Source of the DNA: Sulfurivermis fontis
GTDB lineage: Bacteria > Pseudomonadota > Gammaproteobacteria > Thiohalomonadales > Thiohalomonadaceae
Assembly: GCF_004001245.1 (NCBI RefSeq)
Contig: NZ_AP018724.1
Span: 2,968,501 to 3,032,500, forward strand
Length of the DNA stretch: 64,000 nucleotides
Reading direction: 5' to 3'
Position numbers and translations under genes: made by a program. Shown piece by piece: positions 5,033 through 13,275 of this stretch (position 1 is the first letter of the stretch; every line of letters starts with the position of its first letter). The notes below the pieces were generated by a model, which was not told where the DNA came from, did not search any database, and was given only the letters and a program-made list of their open reading frames with translations.

Positions 5033-5189
5033 TCGCCAATTCTGTTCGCTTGGCGCAACCCGATCCCGCGAACTCCTTCGCACCAGCCCCCATCGGTTCG
5101 CACCGGCCCGAAACTCCCTGATGGCCTCGGTAGAGGCCTGACCGGACAATCTCGTCATCGAGCGAGTTGGACGTTCAGGACCGATACCG

Positions 5190-5408
5190 ATGTGCACGAT
5201 CAACCACCTTCCCCCCGACCGGATGACGCCGGAGCAGCGCCGGCAAGAGGTCGCGTCCTTGCTGGCGCGCGGCCTCGTCCGACTGCGCGACGCCGCGGTC
5301 GCGCAGTCCGCAGGTCACCCCACGGAGAGCGAGTTTGAGCTTGGCTTCTCCGGCCGGAAGCAGCCTCATAGCCACCCCGTCAACAACACTTTGGAGGAGG
5401 CTCCATGA
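5190..5408 (+). CDS. Small protein leading the recombinase module
   Basis: A 72-residue protein starting MCTINHLPPDRMTPEQRRQE, helical and basic in its first half, with no recognised domain. It overlaps the DUF2924 gene by 4 bases (ATGA), and that gene overlaps the recombinase gene in the same way, so all three are translated from one message. The tight coupling makes it a real gene despite its size. Its function is unknown. Confidence 0.7.
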   Translation: MCTINHLPPDRMTPEQRRQEVASLLARGLVRLRDAAVAQSAGHPTESEFELGFSGRKQPHSHPVNNTLEEAP

Positions 5409-5898
5409 AGGCAAGCACCGTCCCACCCACCCCGCCGAGCGTCGTCGCCCGGATCGCCGGGCTCCCGGATCTCTCGATAGAGGAAATGAGGGCGCTTTGG
5501 CGAGAACTCTTCGGCAGCGACAACCCGCCGCCCAATCGCCAGTTCATGGAGCGGCGGATCGCGTACAAGCTGCAAGAGATCGAGTTCCGCAAGGTCGATC
5601 CCAGCCTCTTGGAGCGCAACAAGCGGCGCATCAAGGCCCTGGTGGAGACCGGCAAGGCGCGCAAGCTCGATCGCGACATCCGGCTGATGCCCGGCACCGT
5701 GCTCACCCGGGAGTACCAGGGGATCGAGCACCGGGTGACGGTCGCCCAGGACGGACAGTATGAGTTCGAGGGCAGGCGCTACCCGAGCCTGTCCATGATC
5801 GCCCGCGAGATCACCGGCACCCGCTGGTCCGGGCCGCTCTTCTTCGGCGTGAAGGCACCGGCCAAGGCGAAGAATCCGAAGAAGCAGGGAGGTCGGCG

Positions 5899-5902
<4 letters not shown>
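5405..5902 (+). CDS. DUF2924 protein of recombinase module
   Basis: A 165-residue basic protein of the DUF2924 type. The helical N-terminus includes the typical LSIEEMRALWRELFGSDNPP and RQFMERRIAYKLQE segments. The C-terminal half has a beta-rich part (GTVLTREYQGIEHRVTVAQD) and ends in KNPKKQGGRR. DUF2924 genes typically sit immediately before large serine recombinase genes in phages and islands, as here, with a 4-base stop/start overlap on both sides. A DNA-binding accessory role in recombination is inferred from this association; the biochemical function is not established. Confidence 0.85.
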
Positions 5903-7248
<1,346 letters not shown>

Positions 7249-7257
<9 letters not shown>

Positions 7258-7340
7258 CAAATTCGTCGGGAACGAATTTGGACAGCCGCAAGGCTGGTCC
7301 CGTAGGGACGGGCTCCAGGGATGGAGCCCGCAGCGAAATC
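7249..7340 (+). repeat. Translated multi-hairpin element, copy B
   Basis: The first 35 bases match copy A (763 down to 729) exactly, including the start codon and the AAATTCGT/ACGAATTT palindrome. Three hairpins follow: AGCC/GGCT with loop GCAA, GTCCC/GGGAC with loop GTA, and GGGCTCC/GGAGCCC with loop AGGGAT. Order, spacing and loop character parallel copy A while the stems differ. The block is translated as residues 1-~25 of the 7254-7760 protein. Confidence 0.75.
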
Positions 7341-7760
7341 TTGATCGACAAGACCGGCCAGCCAGAGGTGATCACCGCGAGCGACGGCAGCCTCACCGTG
7401 ACCGTGCCGATCCGGATCAAGCGCCGCGGCAGCCGCAAGGCCGTGACGCTGCCGGACGGTGGTGCCGTGCAACCACGCCCCTGGGACGACACGCCGACAC
7501 CGATCCAGCTCGCACTCGCCCGCGGCCACCGCTGGCTGGCGATGGTGGAGTCCGGCGAGGCGCGCACGCTATCCGAGGTGGCCGAACGCGAGGGGATGGA
7601 TCGCGCCTATGTGAGTCGGATGGTGAACCTCACCACCCTGGCGCCGGACATCGTCGCCGCCATCCTCGACGAGACCCTGCCGCCGGAGGTGACCCTGTTC
7701 GATCTGGCGTCGGGGACGCCACTGCTATGGGACGAGCAGCGGCGAAGAATCCAAGCCTGA
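7254..7760 (+). CDS. HTH protein of recombinase module, palindromic N-terminus
   Basis: 168 residues. Residues 1-26 (MTNSSGTNLD...) are encoded by the multi-hairpin element shared with the 216-758 gene. Residues ~27-75 form a beta-rich basic stretch (SLTVTVPIRIKRRGSRKAV). Residues ~90-140 contain a helix-turn-helix resembling ParB/KorB or sigma-type readers (TLSEVAEREGMDRAYVSRMV). GAGGAGG precedes the ATG, and the start overlaps the recombinase stop by 4 bases. It probably regulates or assists the recombinase. No enzymatic motif is seen. Confidence 0.8.
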
Positions 7761-7821
7761 TCTCGCGGATCCCCGATTCCCCGCCCCGGGTTGGGAGGGT
7801 GGCCGATTTCCCGTCCGAGTG

Positions 7822-7859
7822 TTGCGTCGTCGCATAGATGCGTTATCATGCAACTATGC
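7822..7859 (+). promoter_or_regulatory. ArsR promoter and operator
   Basis: A near-perfect inverted repeat with 10-bp arms (7832-7841 and 7850-7859, one mismatch, 8-base spacer) covers the region just before and across the ArsR start. A sigma70-like pair TTGCGT (7822-7827) and TATCAT (7844-7849), spaced 16 bases, places transcription initiation at about 7856, the A of the chosen ATG. The repressor would therefore block its own promoter, and the mRNA may be leaderless. Confidence 0.6.
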
Positions 7860-8260
7860 ATACGATCAACGTACAACCACACGAAATCTTTCAGGCCCTC
7901 GCCGACCCGACGAGGATCCGTATCGTCCGCCTGCTGGCCGAGACCGGCGAGGAGGCCTGCCTCTGCGAACTGGTGGACAGCCTGCTTGAGCCCCAGTACA
8001 AGCTGTCGCGCCATGTAAAGATTCTGCGTCAGGCTGGGCTGCTGTCCGCAGAGAAAGATGGGCGCTGGGTCTATCACCGCCTCGTGCGCGGCGTGCCTTA
8101 CCTGGAATTGGCCTATGACATGCTGCGGGCGCTGCCCGACGTCGGCGGGCTCTTTGCCCAGGACTTGCACCGTTTTCGCGAGCGCATGTGTTTACGGGAA
8201 GGCGGGCGCTGTCGTATCGGCATCCAGACCGCATCGCTTGCGGCGGTGGAGGGCGAGTGA
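7856..8260 (+). CDS. ArsR/SmtB-family metal-responsive repressor
   Basis: A 134-residue winged-helix repressor. LADPTRIRIVRLLAE is the family signature near residues 15-29. CLCELV (Cys35, Cys37) sits in the alpha-3 helix, where CadC/ArsR-type proteins bind metal or arsenite. YKLSRHVKILRQAG is the recognition helix and DGRWVYHRL the wing. Two more cysteines lie near the C-terminus (MCLREGGRC). ATG 7856 is preferred over 7838 because the protein then begins with the usual family N-terminus and the operator overlaps the start. It overlaps the ATPase ATG by one base, so metal binding should derepress the whole downstream cluster. Confidence 0.9.
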   Translation: MHTINVQPHEIFQALADPTRIRIVRLLAETGEEACLCELVDSLLEPQYKLSRHVKILRQAGLLSAEKDGRWVYHRLVRGVPYLELAYDMLRALPDVGGLFAQDLHRFRERMCLREGGRCRIGIQTASLAAVEGE

Positions 8261-10167
8261 TGGGCTGCGCCTGCGCCGCCGAGGCCCCGGTGGTCATGCC
8301 GCGACCCTGGCGCAACGCCAAGGTCGTCACCTCCGTATGCTCCGGGCTGTTGCTGCTCACCGGCTTCGTCGGCGGCTATCTCGGCCTGCCCGCCGGGTTC
8401 CAGGCAATTCTCTATATCGCCGCCGTACTCGTCGGCGGCTACTATTTCGGCCGCGAGGCGCTGGAGGAACTGGTCAAGGAGCGCGAGATCGGCATTGAGC
8501 TCCTCATGTCCACCGCCGCCATCGTCGCCGGGGTCATGGGGCAGTGGGCGGAGGCCGCGACGCTTGTGTTTCTCTACTCGATCTCCGAGGCGGCGGAAGG
8601 CTACACGGCGGAGCGCGCCCGGCACGCGATCCGCGCCCTCATGGACTTGGCCCCGAAGACCGCGCTCGTGCGGCGCGGAGACGAGGAGATACGGATCCCG
8701 GTCGAGCAGATCCGGGTGGGCGATGTCTTCATCGTGCTGCCGGGCGAGTCGGTCGCCACTGACGGCGAGGTGGTCGACGGTCATTCCAGCGTGAACCAGG
8801 CGCCGGTGACCGGCGAATCCGTGCCGGTCGAGAAACTGCCGGGCAGCCAGGTGTTCGCCGCCACCCTCAACGGCGAGGGCGCGCTCACGGTGCGCGCCGC
8901 CAAGACCTTCGCCGACAACACCCTCTCGCGCATCATCCATCTGGTGGAAGCCGCGCAGGCGAGCAAGGGCCGCAGTCAACGCTTCATCGAGCGCTTCGGC
9001 AAGCGCTACAGCCCCTCCGTCCTGGGCGTGGGCATCCTCATCGGCCTTTTGCCGCCGCTGTTCGGCCTGCCTTGGGAGGACTGGCTCACCCGCGCCACCG
9101 TGTTCATCGTCGCCGCCGCCCCTTGCGCCCTGGTGATCTCCGTCCCCATCACGCTGGTCGCCGCCATCGGCACCGCCGGCCGCAACGGCCTGTTGATCAA
9201 GGGCGGCGTGCATCTGGAGAACCTGGCCAAGGTGCGGGTGGTGGCCCTGGACAAGACCGGCACGCTCACCCTGGGCCGGCCGCAGGTCACGGATGTGATC
9301 CCGCTGGACGGGCAAAGCGAACGCGAGGTACTGGCCGCGGCCGCCGCCCTCGAACTGCGCTCGCAGCACCCCCTGGCGCAGGCCGTGCTGGAGCGGGCCA
9401 AGAGCGAGGGCATCGCGGTCAACCCGGCCCAAGATTTCCTGTCCCTCACCGGCGCGGGCGCCCGCGGCCGGATCGAAGGCGTCGACCACTATGTAGGAAA
9501 CCCACGGCTCTTCGAGGGGCTGGGCGTTCCGGTGGCCGCCGCGATGCCCCGCATCGAAGCCTTGCAGCGGGAAGGCAAGACCGTGGTGCTGGTCGGCACC
9601 GATCGAGCCCTCGACGGCCTGATCGCCATCGCCGATCCGCTGCGGCCGGAGGCGGTCCGGGCCGTCGCCGAGCTCAAGCGCGCCGGCATCGAGCGGGTGG
9701 TCATGCTGACCGGCGACAATCCCTTGGCGGCGGAAGCGATCGCCAGGCAGGTGGGTGTGGACGAGGTGTTCGCCGAGCTTTCCCCGGAGGGCAAGACGCG
9801 CAAGGTCGCCGAGCTGGAGGCGCGCCACGGCAAGGTGGTGATGGTCGGCGATGGCGTGAACGACGCGCCCGCACTGGCGGCGGCCCACGTCGGCGTCGCC
9901 ATGGGCGCGGCGGGCACCGACGTCGCGCTGGAGACGGCGGACGTGGCGCTGATGAGCGACAACCTCGCGCGGCTGCCCTATCTGATTTCCTTCAGCCGCC
10001 GAACCTGGCAGGTGATCCGGCAGAACCTCGCCCTGTCCGCGGTGGTGATCGGCGGCCTGATCGCGGGCGCGGTGGGCGGCTATTTCACCCTGCCGATCGC
10101 GGTGCTGGCGCACGAGATCAGCGAGTTCGTGGTGATCGGAAGCGGCCTGCGCATGCTGCGCCGCTGA
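8260..10167 (+). CDS. P1B-type heavy-metal-transporting ATPase
   Basis: 635 residues starting MGCACAAEAP; the frame opens earlier, but TGATG coupling with arsR fixes this start. About eight membrane segments are visible. The actuator loop has TGES (184-187), the phosphorylation site is DKTGT (Asp331), and SQHPLA, TGDN and GDGVNDAP (from 530) complete the ATPase core. The transmembrane metal motif is APC (287-289) rather than CPC, with HE near 618 in the last helices, so Zn/Cd/Co-type export is likelier than Cu but not proven. The soluble N-terminal metal-binding domain is reduced to a short CAC peptide. Exports a toxic cation from the cytoplasm. Confidence 0.92.
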   Translation: MGCACAAEAPVVMPRPWRNAKVVTSVCSGLLLLTGFVGGYLGLPAGFQAILYIAAVLVGGYYFGREALEELVKEREIGIELLMSTAAIVAGVMGQWAEAATLVFLYSISEAAEGYTAERARHAIRALMDLAPKTALVRRGDEEIRIPVEQIRVGDVFIVLPGESVATDGEVVDGHSSVNQAPVTGESVPVEKLPGSQVFAATLNGEGALTVRAAKTFADNTLSRIIHLVEAAQASKGRSQRFIERFGKRYSPSVLGVGILIGLLPPLFGLPWEDWLTRATVFIVAAAPCALVISVPITLVAAIGTAGRNGLLIKGGVHLENLAKVRVVALDKTGTLTLGRPQVTDVIPLDGQSEREVLAAAAALELRSQHPLAQAVLERAKSEGIAVNPAQDFLSLTGAGARGRIEGVDHYVGNPRLFEGLGVPVAAAMPRIEALQREGKTVVLVGTDRALDGLIAIADPLRPEAVRAVAELKRAGIERVVMLTGDNPLAAEAIARQVGVDEVFAELSPEGKTRKVAELEARHGKVVMVGDGVNDAPALAAAHVGVAMGAAGTDVALETADVALMSDNLARLPYLISFSRRTWQVIRQNLALSAVVIGGLIAGAVGGYFTLPIAVLAHEISEFVVIGSGLRMLRR

Positions 10168-10196
10168 ACAGCAATTCCAACCCAAGGAGCGTTGTC

Positions 10197-10589
10197 ATGG
10201 ATATCAAGTACGGTTTCGGCAAGACGGTGGAGCTGACCTTCGATCAAGCGATCGAGCGCGTCACCCAGGCCCTGCAGGCCGAAGGCTTCGGCGTGCTGGC
10301 CGACATCGACGTCGCCGGCGCGATGAAGAAAAAGCTCAACCAGGACATGCCGCCCTACCGAATTCTCGGCGCATGCAATCCGCCGCTCGCGCATCGGGCC
10401 CTGACGGTGGAGCCGTCCATCGGGCTGCTCCTGCCCTGCAACGTGGTGGTGCGCCAGGATGATGCAGGCAAGGTGCATGTCGAGTTCATGGACCCCAACG
10501 CCGTGCTGGACCTGGTCGGCAAACCGGATATCACTCAGCTGGCCGGTGAGGTGAGGCAGCGGCTGCAGCGGGTGATGCAGGCGCTGTAG
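10197..10589 (+). CDS. DUF302 family protein
   Basis: A 130-residue cytoplasmic protein covering a complete DUF302 domain. The KTVELTFDQAIERVTQALQAEGFGVL start and the GLLLPCNVVVRQ signature (Cys in LPCN) are typical. CCAAGGAGCG precedes the ATG. DUF302 genes often neighbour metal or arsenic resistance genes and c-type cytochromes; their role is unknown. Here it lies 29 bases after the ATPase in what looks like one transcription unit. A GC-rich hairpin follows its stop. Confidence 0.88.
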   Translation: MDIKYGFGKTVELTFDQAIERVTQALQAEGFGVLADIDVAGAMKKKLNQDMPPYRILGACNPPLAHRALTVEPSIGLLLPCNVVVRQDDAGKVHVEFMDPNAVLDLVGKPDITQLAGEVRQRLQRVMQAL

Positions 10590-10620
10590 CCCCGGGCGAA
10601 AAGCGTCTTTCAGCCCGGGG
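10590..10620 (+). other. GC-rich intergenic hairpin
   Basis: CCCCGGGC (10590-10597) pairs with GCCCGGGG (10613-10620) across a 15-base loop directly after the DUF302 stop. There is no U-run, so it is more likely an mRNA processing or stability element than a terminator. Confidence 0.45.
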
Positions 10621-10638
10621 CGAACGAGGAGCGTGGAG

Positions 10639-11328
10639 ATGAGAACAACTCGACGAGGCATTTCAAGGCTAACGGCCGGTGCAGCCGTCGCGTTCTCGTT
10701 GCTCGTCTCATCCCTCGCTGTTGGCCTTGCCCGTGCGGAGGGGGCAACAAAATTGGCGCAAGACATGATGGGGCCGGGAATGATGGGCCCCATGCACAGG
10801 AACATGATGCAGCGGATGATGGGGGGCGCGCTGCCGCCCGGCATCGATCCCGCGCTGCTGCCCGAGCCGGATTCGGCAGGCGCGAGGATACTGTAGTATT
10901 ACTGCGTGCAATGCCACAACCTGCCCGGCCCGGGCATGCACACCGCCGCCGGATGGCCGCGGGTGCTGGGCCGCATGAACATGCGCATGCGGATGATGGG
11001 CGGCATGATGGGTGGAATGATGGGGGTGGTGGCCCCGAGCAGGGTAGAACTGGACATCCTGCTCGACTATCTGCAGAAGCACGCCCAGGAACCGATCGAC
11101 GCGGCCAAATACCCGGACCTGAACACGCAGGCGGGCCAGGCGTTCAGCACCTCCTGCGTGCAGTGCCACGCGCTGCCGGACCCGCGTCAGCACACCGCGC
11201 AGGAGTGGCCGGCGGTGGTCGGCCGGATGCGCGGGCACGAGGCGGCAATGGGAAAGTTCGTCCCGGACAAGACGACGACGGCCGAGATTATCGACTTCTT
11301 GCGGCGGCATGGCCGCACCCGGGAATGA
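10639..11328 (+). pseudogene. Dihaem cytochrome c interrupted by amber codon
   Basis: One frame runs from ATG 10639 (GAGGAG 7 bases upstream) to the stop at 11326-11328, broken only by TAG at 10894-10896. Before the TAG are a signal peptide (about residues 1-34) and a Met-rich segment (DMMGPGMMGPMHRNMMQRMM). Directly after it come TAT-TAC and the first haem motif CVQCH (10903-10917). A second haem site CVQCH lies near 11155-11169. Restoring CAG at the TAG would give a continuous periplasmic dihaem cytochrome of about 229 residues. As read, only an 85-residue haemless fragment is made unless the amber codon is suppressed. Confidence 0.85.
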
Positions 11329-11340
11329 AAGGCTAAGAAG

Positions 11341-11589
11341 ATGATGATGGATTACGGCATGGGCTGGGGATGGGGATTCGGCTGGATCTGGATGATCCTG
11401 CTCTGGCTGGTGCCGGTACTGCTCGTGCTGGCCGCCATCAAGTATCTGTTGGGCGGCAGAAGCCGAACGGGCACGGGCGCTCGCCAGGGCGATGACCGGG
11501 CCTTGGCTATCCTTGAAGAAAAATACGCGCGGGGGGAAATCGATCGCGACGAGTTCTTGCAGAAGCGCGACGACTTGAAGGGGGGATAG
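11341..11589 (+). CDS. SHOCT-domain small membrane protein
   Basis: 82 residues. The start is Met/Trp/Gly-rich (MMMDYGMGWGWGFGW). One membrane helix follows (about residues 15-37), then a short linker and a C-terminal SHOCT motif (ALAILEEKYARGEIDRDEFLQKRDDL). SHOCT domains are short oligomerisation modules usually attached to membrane anchors. It lies 12 bases after the cytochrome frame inside the metal-stress cluster. Function unknown; the Met-rich tip facing the periplasm would suit Cu or Ag contact, which is inference. Confidence 0.82.
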   Translation: MMMDYGMGWGWGFGWIWMILLWLVPVLLVLAAIKYLLGGRSRTGTGARQGDDRALAILEEKYARGEIDRDEFLQKRDDLKGG

Positions 11590-11591
11590 GC

Positions 11592-11609
11592 CCCGGTCCA
11601 AGGACCGGG
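11592..11609 (+). other. Perfect 8-bp intergenic hairpin
   Basis: CCCGGTCC and GGACCGGG flank a 2-base loop just after the SHOCT stop, followed by TTGTGC rather than a U-run. It may be an attenuator or stability element between the SHOCT and Spy-like genes. Confidence 0.45.
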
Positions 11610-11641
11610 TTGTGCAATTTCCACCAGTAAAGGAGATGCAA

Positions 11642-12298
11642 ATGAACACCAAGCAAAAACTCGTTGGCGCGCTTGCCGCGATGGCGCTTTTGGGAACCGT
11701 GGCCAGCGCTTCGGCTCAGCAAGGGCAACCGTACTACGGCTACGGCATGGGACCCGGCATGATGGGCGGATGGTGCCCGATGTGCGGCATGGGGCCGGGG
11801 ATGATGGGCATGGGACCGGGCATGATGGGTCCCGGCATGATGGGCATGGGTCCCCGCGGGATGTGGGGGGATTGGGATGACTGGGACGACCGCTACATGG
11901 GCCGTGGCATGATGGGCCCTGGCATGATGGGCCCCGGAATGATGGGCCCCGGAATGATGGGCCCCGGAATGATGGGCGGATACGGCTATGGCCCGGCGCT
12001 CGACCTCACGGAGCAGCAGCAGGCCAAGATCGCACAGATCCAGGAGGACTTCCGCAAGAAGCAGTGGGACCTGGCGGCGAAGATGGATGCCGAGCAAGCC
12101 AAGCTCAACGAAATCTACTACTCCGGGAAGCGTGACCCCGCCGCGATCGACAACCAATACAAGAAGATTTACGACCTGCGACGGCAGATGATCCAGATCC
12201 AGGTCGATGCGCAGAATCGCATGGACGCGGTGCTCACCCCCGAGCAGAAGGAGCGGCTGCGCGGTTACTACGGCGGGCGGGGCGGGATGATGCGGTAG
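11642..12298 (+). CDS. Met-rich Spy/CpxP-like periplasmic metal protein
   Basis: 218 residues with a clear signal peptide (MNTKQKLVGALAAMALLGTV, then ASASAQ cleavage). AAGGAG 6 bases before ATG 11642 fixes the start. Residues ~35-115 are built of repeated GPGMMG units with WCPMCGM inside. The C-terminal half (LDLTEQQQAKIAQIQEDFRK ... LTPEQKERLRG) is an LTxxQ-type four-helix domain like Spy, CpxP and ZraP. Such proteins act as periplasmic chaperones or metal buffers. The Met repeats suggest Cu(I)/Ag(I) binding. Last intact gene of the metal-stress cluster; DNA repeats in the Met segment may make its length variable. Confidence 0.88.
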   Translation: MNTKQKLVGALAAMALLGTVASASAQQGQPYYGYGMGPGMMGGWCPMCGMGPGMMGMGPGMMGPGMMGMGPRGMWGDWDDWDDRYMGRGMMGPGMMGPGMMGPGMMGPGMMGGYGYGPALDLTEQQQAKIAQIQEDFRKKQWDLAAKMDAEQAKLNEIYYSGKRDPAAIDNQYKKIYDLRRQMIQIQVDAQNRMDAVLTPEQKERLRGYYGGRGGMMR

Positions 12299-12310
12299 CC
12301 GGCCACAGCC

Positions 12311-12861
12311 GGCCACGTTAACGGTGACTGGGCCGTGCTCGAGCCGGTCGACGCCGACTACCGGCCGACTCTACCGGGCACGCCGTCGCACACGGTCCTG
12401 CTGAGTAATCTCGCCAGCCGGGTACAGCCGATCCTGCGCTACGACCTCGGGGACAGCATCCTGCAGCGGCCCGATCCCTGTCCCTGCGGCAATCCACTGC
12501 CCGCGATCCGCGTGCAGGGCCGCTCCGCCGATGTGCTCTCATTTACGACAGAACGCGGCGAGCGTGTCTTTATCCCTCCGCTGGCGTTGGAGCTTGACCA
12601 TATCTCTGGCGTCGAGCTGTCGCAGATCGTGCAGACTGCACCGATGCGTCTGCGCGTGCGCCTGCGTCCCGCGCCCGGCGCCGACCCGGAGCGCATGTGG
12701 GGGAGGCTGTGCGTAGTGGGATCGCGTGCCTGCTCATCGAGCACCGGCTCGATCAGGTCGCGGTCGAGCGCGCCGAGGAGCCGCCTGCGCAATCCAGCGG
12801 CGGAAAGTACCGCACCGTCATTCCGCTACCTCCCGAGGGCGCCCCGACCACGCAGGGTTGA
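12311..12861 (+). pseudogene. Remnant of PaaK-like adenylate-forming ligase
   Basis: Translated similarity to the C-terminal part of phenylacetate-CoA-ligase-like proteins is clear. LRYDLGDSILQRPDPCPCGN and the following GRSADVL match the adenylate-ligase C-subdomain entry and its Cys-Gly metal-like loop. The gene has no 5' half and begins abruptly 13 bases after the Spy-like stop. At the G-run near 12696-12702 the frame shifts; in the new frame a natural C-terminus continues (EAVRSGIACLLIEHRLDQVA ... GGKYRTVIPL) to the TGA at 12859-12861. Doubly broken, it marks a recombination joint at the island edge. Confidence 0.82.
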
Positions 12862-13104
12862 GGCTATGTCTGGTTTGGGTGAGCGATGCACTCATCCAAC
12901 CGGTTGAACGGTCAGCACGTAACTTGTTGATATTGAATGGTGCCGTCGGCGCTCCCTGTTGACTTCGACCTTTCGCCGGGGAGCAGGGCCGGAGAGAAAA
13001 ACGGCGCGGAGAGAGCGAAATGGGGCCCGAGGCAGGCGAGACGGCCGGGGAAGGAAGTCCGCAGGAATCCGCAGGAGTCCCCGCGAACGCGCGGGAGCGC
13101 GCAA

Positions 13105-13136
13105 GAAAAAAGGCCAACCGAGAACGGTTGACCTTT
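13105..13136 (-). terminator. Terminator of tRNA-Phe
   Basis: On the minus strand an 11-bp GC-containing stem (13125-13135 with 13110-13120, one G-U type mismatch) with a 4-base loop is followed by six U. It starts 7 bases beyond the tRNA 3' CCA, so it terminates the tRNA-Phe transcript. Confidence 0.8.
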
Positions 13137-13142
13137 ATATAT

Positions 13143-13218
<76 letters not shown>

Positions 13219-13275
13219 GAAAGGCCGCCTATTAAAACGGCAGCGGCCCGGCAAGTCAAGGAATAATCGTGGCTT

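Follow-up and report, generated by a model that had tools for sequence, protein, structure and literature searches.

What does a single in-frame amber codon signify in a cytochrome gene that is otherwise complete? The gene in question encodes a two-haem c-type cytochrome of Sulfurivermis fontis and is located on the forward strand at 10639 to 11328 of the window, the 64,000-nucleotide stretch of the chromosome that was analysed here. Delimited by translation and homologue alignment, it comprises 229 sense or amber codons plus a TGA stop: from the ATG at 10639 the frame runs through 85 codons, meets TAG at 10894 to 10896 and continues over 143 open codons to the TGA that ends at 11328. The motif CVQCH for haem binding is present twice, at 10903 to 10917 and 11155 to 11169, and both copies lie downstream of the amber, which is separated from the first cysteine codon by TAT and TAC only. 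The upstream fragment (10639 to 10893) of 85 amino acids exhibits a signal-peptide-like N-terminus, judged by eye and not with a predictor, and a Met-rich stretch, and it contains no haem motif. Translation of 10639 to 11328 thereby confirms the description in the initial annotation, i.e. an otherwise intact frame with a signal peptide (by eye, on the 85-residue stub), a TAG three codons before CVQCH and both haem motifs kept in frame. The read-through frame aligns with the equivalent in the island of Tepidiphilus olei J18 (locus L002, 3365 to 4051) from end to end, sharing 228 of 229 residues, and, for most of its length, with five further homologues (L003 to L007) at 44-65%, which shows that its two parts did not come together by chance from separate open reading frames.

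The cytochrome belongs to a cassette of six genes on the forward strand. It begins with an ArsR/SmtB-family metalloregulator (7838 to 8260; NF033788 above cut-off), followed by a heavy-metal P1B-type ATPase that matches the cadmium-family models TIGR01525 and TIGR01512 above cut-off (8188 to 10167; the true start may be further in), a DUF302 protein (10197 to 10589), the interrupted cytochrome, a small SHOCT-domain protein (11341 to 11589) and a Met-rich LTXXQ (Spy/CpxP-like) periplasmic protein (11636 to 12298). The combination of regulator and TIGR01512/TIGR01525 ATPase is shared with the Cd/Zn/Pb-type P1B ATPase clusters that have an ArsR/SmtB regulator, whereas the genes for DUF302, the two-haem cytochrome, SHOCT and LTXXQ are additions of the cassette. 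The same gene set is present in L003 and L004 and also in L005, where no ArsR gene was detected because the locus starts inside the ATPase gene. Among the papers listed in the literature searches, no title deals with this cassette, and in one of these lists none mentions Tepidiphilus. Downstream of the cassette, positions 12335 to 12907 hold a 190-residue open reading frame that has no Pfam match and is identical to its counterpart in T. olei; with the pattern RYDLGD...CPCG it resembles the final part of phenylacetate-CoA-ligase-like proteins and is possibly a gene remnant.

The origin of the stop codon can be pinpointed by comparison with T. olei, which carries a near-identical island (98.6% from 7404 to 13241 of the window) with the same six-gene cassette and tRNA-Phe side. 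Its cytochrome gene is an open frame of 229 codons with a sense codon, for glutamine, opposite the amber; this is exactly the codon from which the initial annotation had guessed a C-to-T change. A premature stop thus stands where the intact orthologue has a sense codon, as is the case in a nonsense pseudogene. Between 10143 and 11903, a stretch of 1,761 bp, L002 departs from the window only at 10894, the amber's first base, with 751 identical bases on its upstream and 1,009 on its downstream side, and the amber is the sole damage to the cytochrome frame. This state would be expected of a very young pseudogene, and no less of one misread base. If 10894 had been miscalled in sequencing or assembly and the gene were intact as in T. 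olei, an isolated difference in undamaged surroundings would be accounted for. We regard this as rather unlikely: finished assemblies suffer substitution-type errors less often than indels, the genome record consists of one complete contig (completeness 100, contamination 0.04), and the cassette differs from L002 at other positions too, so that mutation has had time to act. We infer that the amber is a real change and not a base-calling error.

The remaining differences from T. olei are unevenly distributed. Single-base differences in the stretch from the ArsR to the LTXXQ gene (7838 to 12298, not counting a 30-bp indel) alter the protein in 14 of 17 cases (13 missense, 1 nonsense); since a transition-weighted count gives an expected share of about 0.71 by chance, no claim of selection is made. 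Eight residues of the ATPase are altered. Seven differences, all of them protein-altering, are crowded into 347 bp of its gene (9796 to 10142); the 896 bp upstream contain none and the 1,761 bp downstream a single one. Of the five differences that L003 to L005 allow to be polarised, four look derived in T. olei. The LTXXQ gene shows four missense differences and, at 11909 to 11938, the 30-bp in-frame indel in its Met-rich MMGPG repeat. In the HTH gene upstream of the cassette (7446 to 7733) the divergence from T. olei is mostly synonymous and denser than in the adjoining cassette, which suggests a recombination joint near 7740 to 7840.

The homologues document how the amber site behaves in intact genes. 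When genome contigs were scanned with the downstream half, eight loci were retrieved; in four genomes of the same genus this half had no match at E <= 1e-5. Two CXXCH motifs were present in all 21 homologue open reading frames examined. Programmed read-through or recoding would need a stop codon that is conserved in relatives, but among 30 loci searched none of the 28 that could be read has a stop at the site. The residue found there is variable (glutamine in 7 of 28, otherwise G, K, A, N, T, I, L or V), which means that no special codon is under selection at this position. A class-wide search matched 36 places in 27 of 369 genomes, and only the window's own carries a TAG inside; TGA or TAA occurs somewhere in the matched stretch of five other places, two of which (L073, L074) have no stop in the realigned haem region. 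The same loci bear on the proposal that each half works as a protein of its own, i.e. that the gene is split and not a pseudogene. Both halves have kept an open frame, but no split homologue was found among the 28 loci, no export signal is apparent by eye in the downstream half after its first start codon, and this start, GTG at 10906, falls within the first CVQCH, so that a product begun there would lack the first cysteine of the motif. We consider a functional split to be exceedingly improbable.

It could also be supposed that the amber is read through, be it by a suppressor tRNA, pyrrolysine or a leaky stop, so that the full-length cytochrome is made, as the intact frame on both sides of the codon would permit. 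The amber suppressor tRNA that the initial annotation had brought up was searched for in the host genome. None of the 42 tRNAs above the Rfam cut-off, all typed by ARAGORN, has a CUA anticodon, nor does the one tRNA that ARAGORN added, a tRNA-Arg (CCT) in L040 that adjoins another tRNA and was missed by Rfam; a search at E <= 10 contributed only two sub-threshold places. The genome search recovered no 16S match, no tRNA-Ile(GAU) and no tRNA-Ala(UGC), indicating that rDNA stretches are probably masked and the tRNA census is incomplete, a circumstance that leaves read-through some room. Other evidence speaks against it: RF1 is present above cut-off, and PylS is represented by only two weak matches below cut-off; the family was matched in 13 of 14 control genomes too, in one of them over cut-off. 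The base after the amber is T, and TAG followed by T is an efficient termination context. TAG moreover ends three of the nine genes examined, namely those for the DUF302, SHOCT and LTXXQ proteins in the very cassette of the cytochrome, and is thus used as a stop locally. Read-through is accordingly very improbable, and a regulatory variant, in which the strain does decode the amber (for instance with a suppressor tRNA that lies in the masked rDNA) and termination next to the haem site throttles the cytochrome, is more improbable still. Termination at the amber is the simplest reading, and the case looks like an ordinary nonsense allele and not a novel kind of decoding.

The most likely explanation, which we hold with good confidence on the basis of these sequence comparisons, is that a recent nonsense point mutation inactivated the periplasmic two-haem cytochrome c gene of a horizontally acquired metal-resistance cassette. 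Translation would halt after 85 residues and leave a secreted stub without haem, and any downstream re-initiation would yield a second fragment that lacks a signal peptide and stays in the cytoplasm. Haem of the c-type is attached in the periplasm and not in the cytoplasm (Ccm pathway); with a stub that has no haem site and a fragment that has no export signal, neither piece should become a cytochrome, which points to a loss of cytochrome function. The host genome contains no other match to the cytochrome at E <= 0.01, and hence no close paralogue replaces it. Among the three readings offered in the initial annotation inactivation is thus the best supported, while no support was gathered for read-through.

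The nature of the lost protein can be judged from its intact relatives. An alignment of 20 sequences (T. olei and 19 homologues) revealed, in addition to the two CXXCH motifs, the invariant residues H101, W106, M113, W190, R196 and M197 (T. olei numbering), and the protein consists of two tandem haem domains, each with a CXXCH and an invariant methionine (M113, M197). The second domain matches PF09626 (DHC, dihaem cytochrome c), the fragment scoring 22.4 bits and thus just above the cut-off of 22.2, whereas the intact T. olei protein remains below it with 20.4; the first resembles the cbb3-type domains of PF13442 below cut-off (25.2 versus 27). Two CXXCH motifs in an exported protein, as in PF09626, are present, the export signal being judged by eye. 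The predicted model is mediocre (mean pLDDT 67.9, 6 sequences), and its comparison with known folds yielded no match at E <= 0.001; the best one, sb-DHC of Shewanella baltica (3u99), is weak (E 0.32). Among solved structures a sequence search found weak CcoP matches only. By these sequence features the protein is DHC-like and not a proven member of PF09626. In the intact relatives it is probably an electron carrier of the cassette, and it may act as the redox partner of this metal-resistance cassette.

The cassette is flanked by a mobile-element module of DUF2924, large serine recombinase and HTH genes on the forward strand (5405 to 7760) and by a tRNA-Phe gene on the reverse strand (13143 to 13218), inside which, from 13168, the similarity to the T. 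olei island is no longer exact. The same chromosome holds, at about 1.042-1.052 Mb, a related element whose middle cargo is different (L079; 4706 to 7285 and 10016 to 10313 correspond to 5088 to 7742 and 12894 to 13191 of the window). It shares the recombinase module (98.3% over 5088 to 7257) and the end with the tRNA-Phe 3' fragment (84% over 12894 to 13191, reaching into the end of tRNA-Phe). Given the agreement with T. olei that ends in tRNA-Phe and the second element in the chromosome, it is well supported that the cassette was acquired horizontally and recently. A search of the plasmid collection found short stretches of the ATPase in three records as the only matches to the cassette DNA, and one weak Variovorax hit as the only match to the cytochrome protein; the viral contigs gave no match.

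As a nonsense allele the interrupted gene is of little importance. It does represent one half of a clean natural pair, broken in S. fontis, intact in T. olei and otherwise identical over the gene, and this pair is suited to asking whether the metal-resistance cassette needs its two-haem cytochrome to work.
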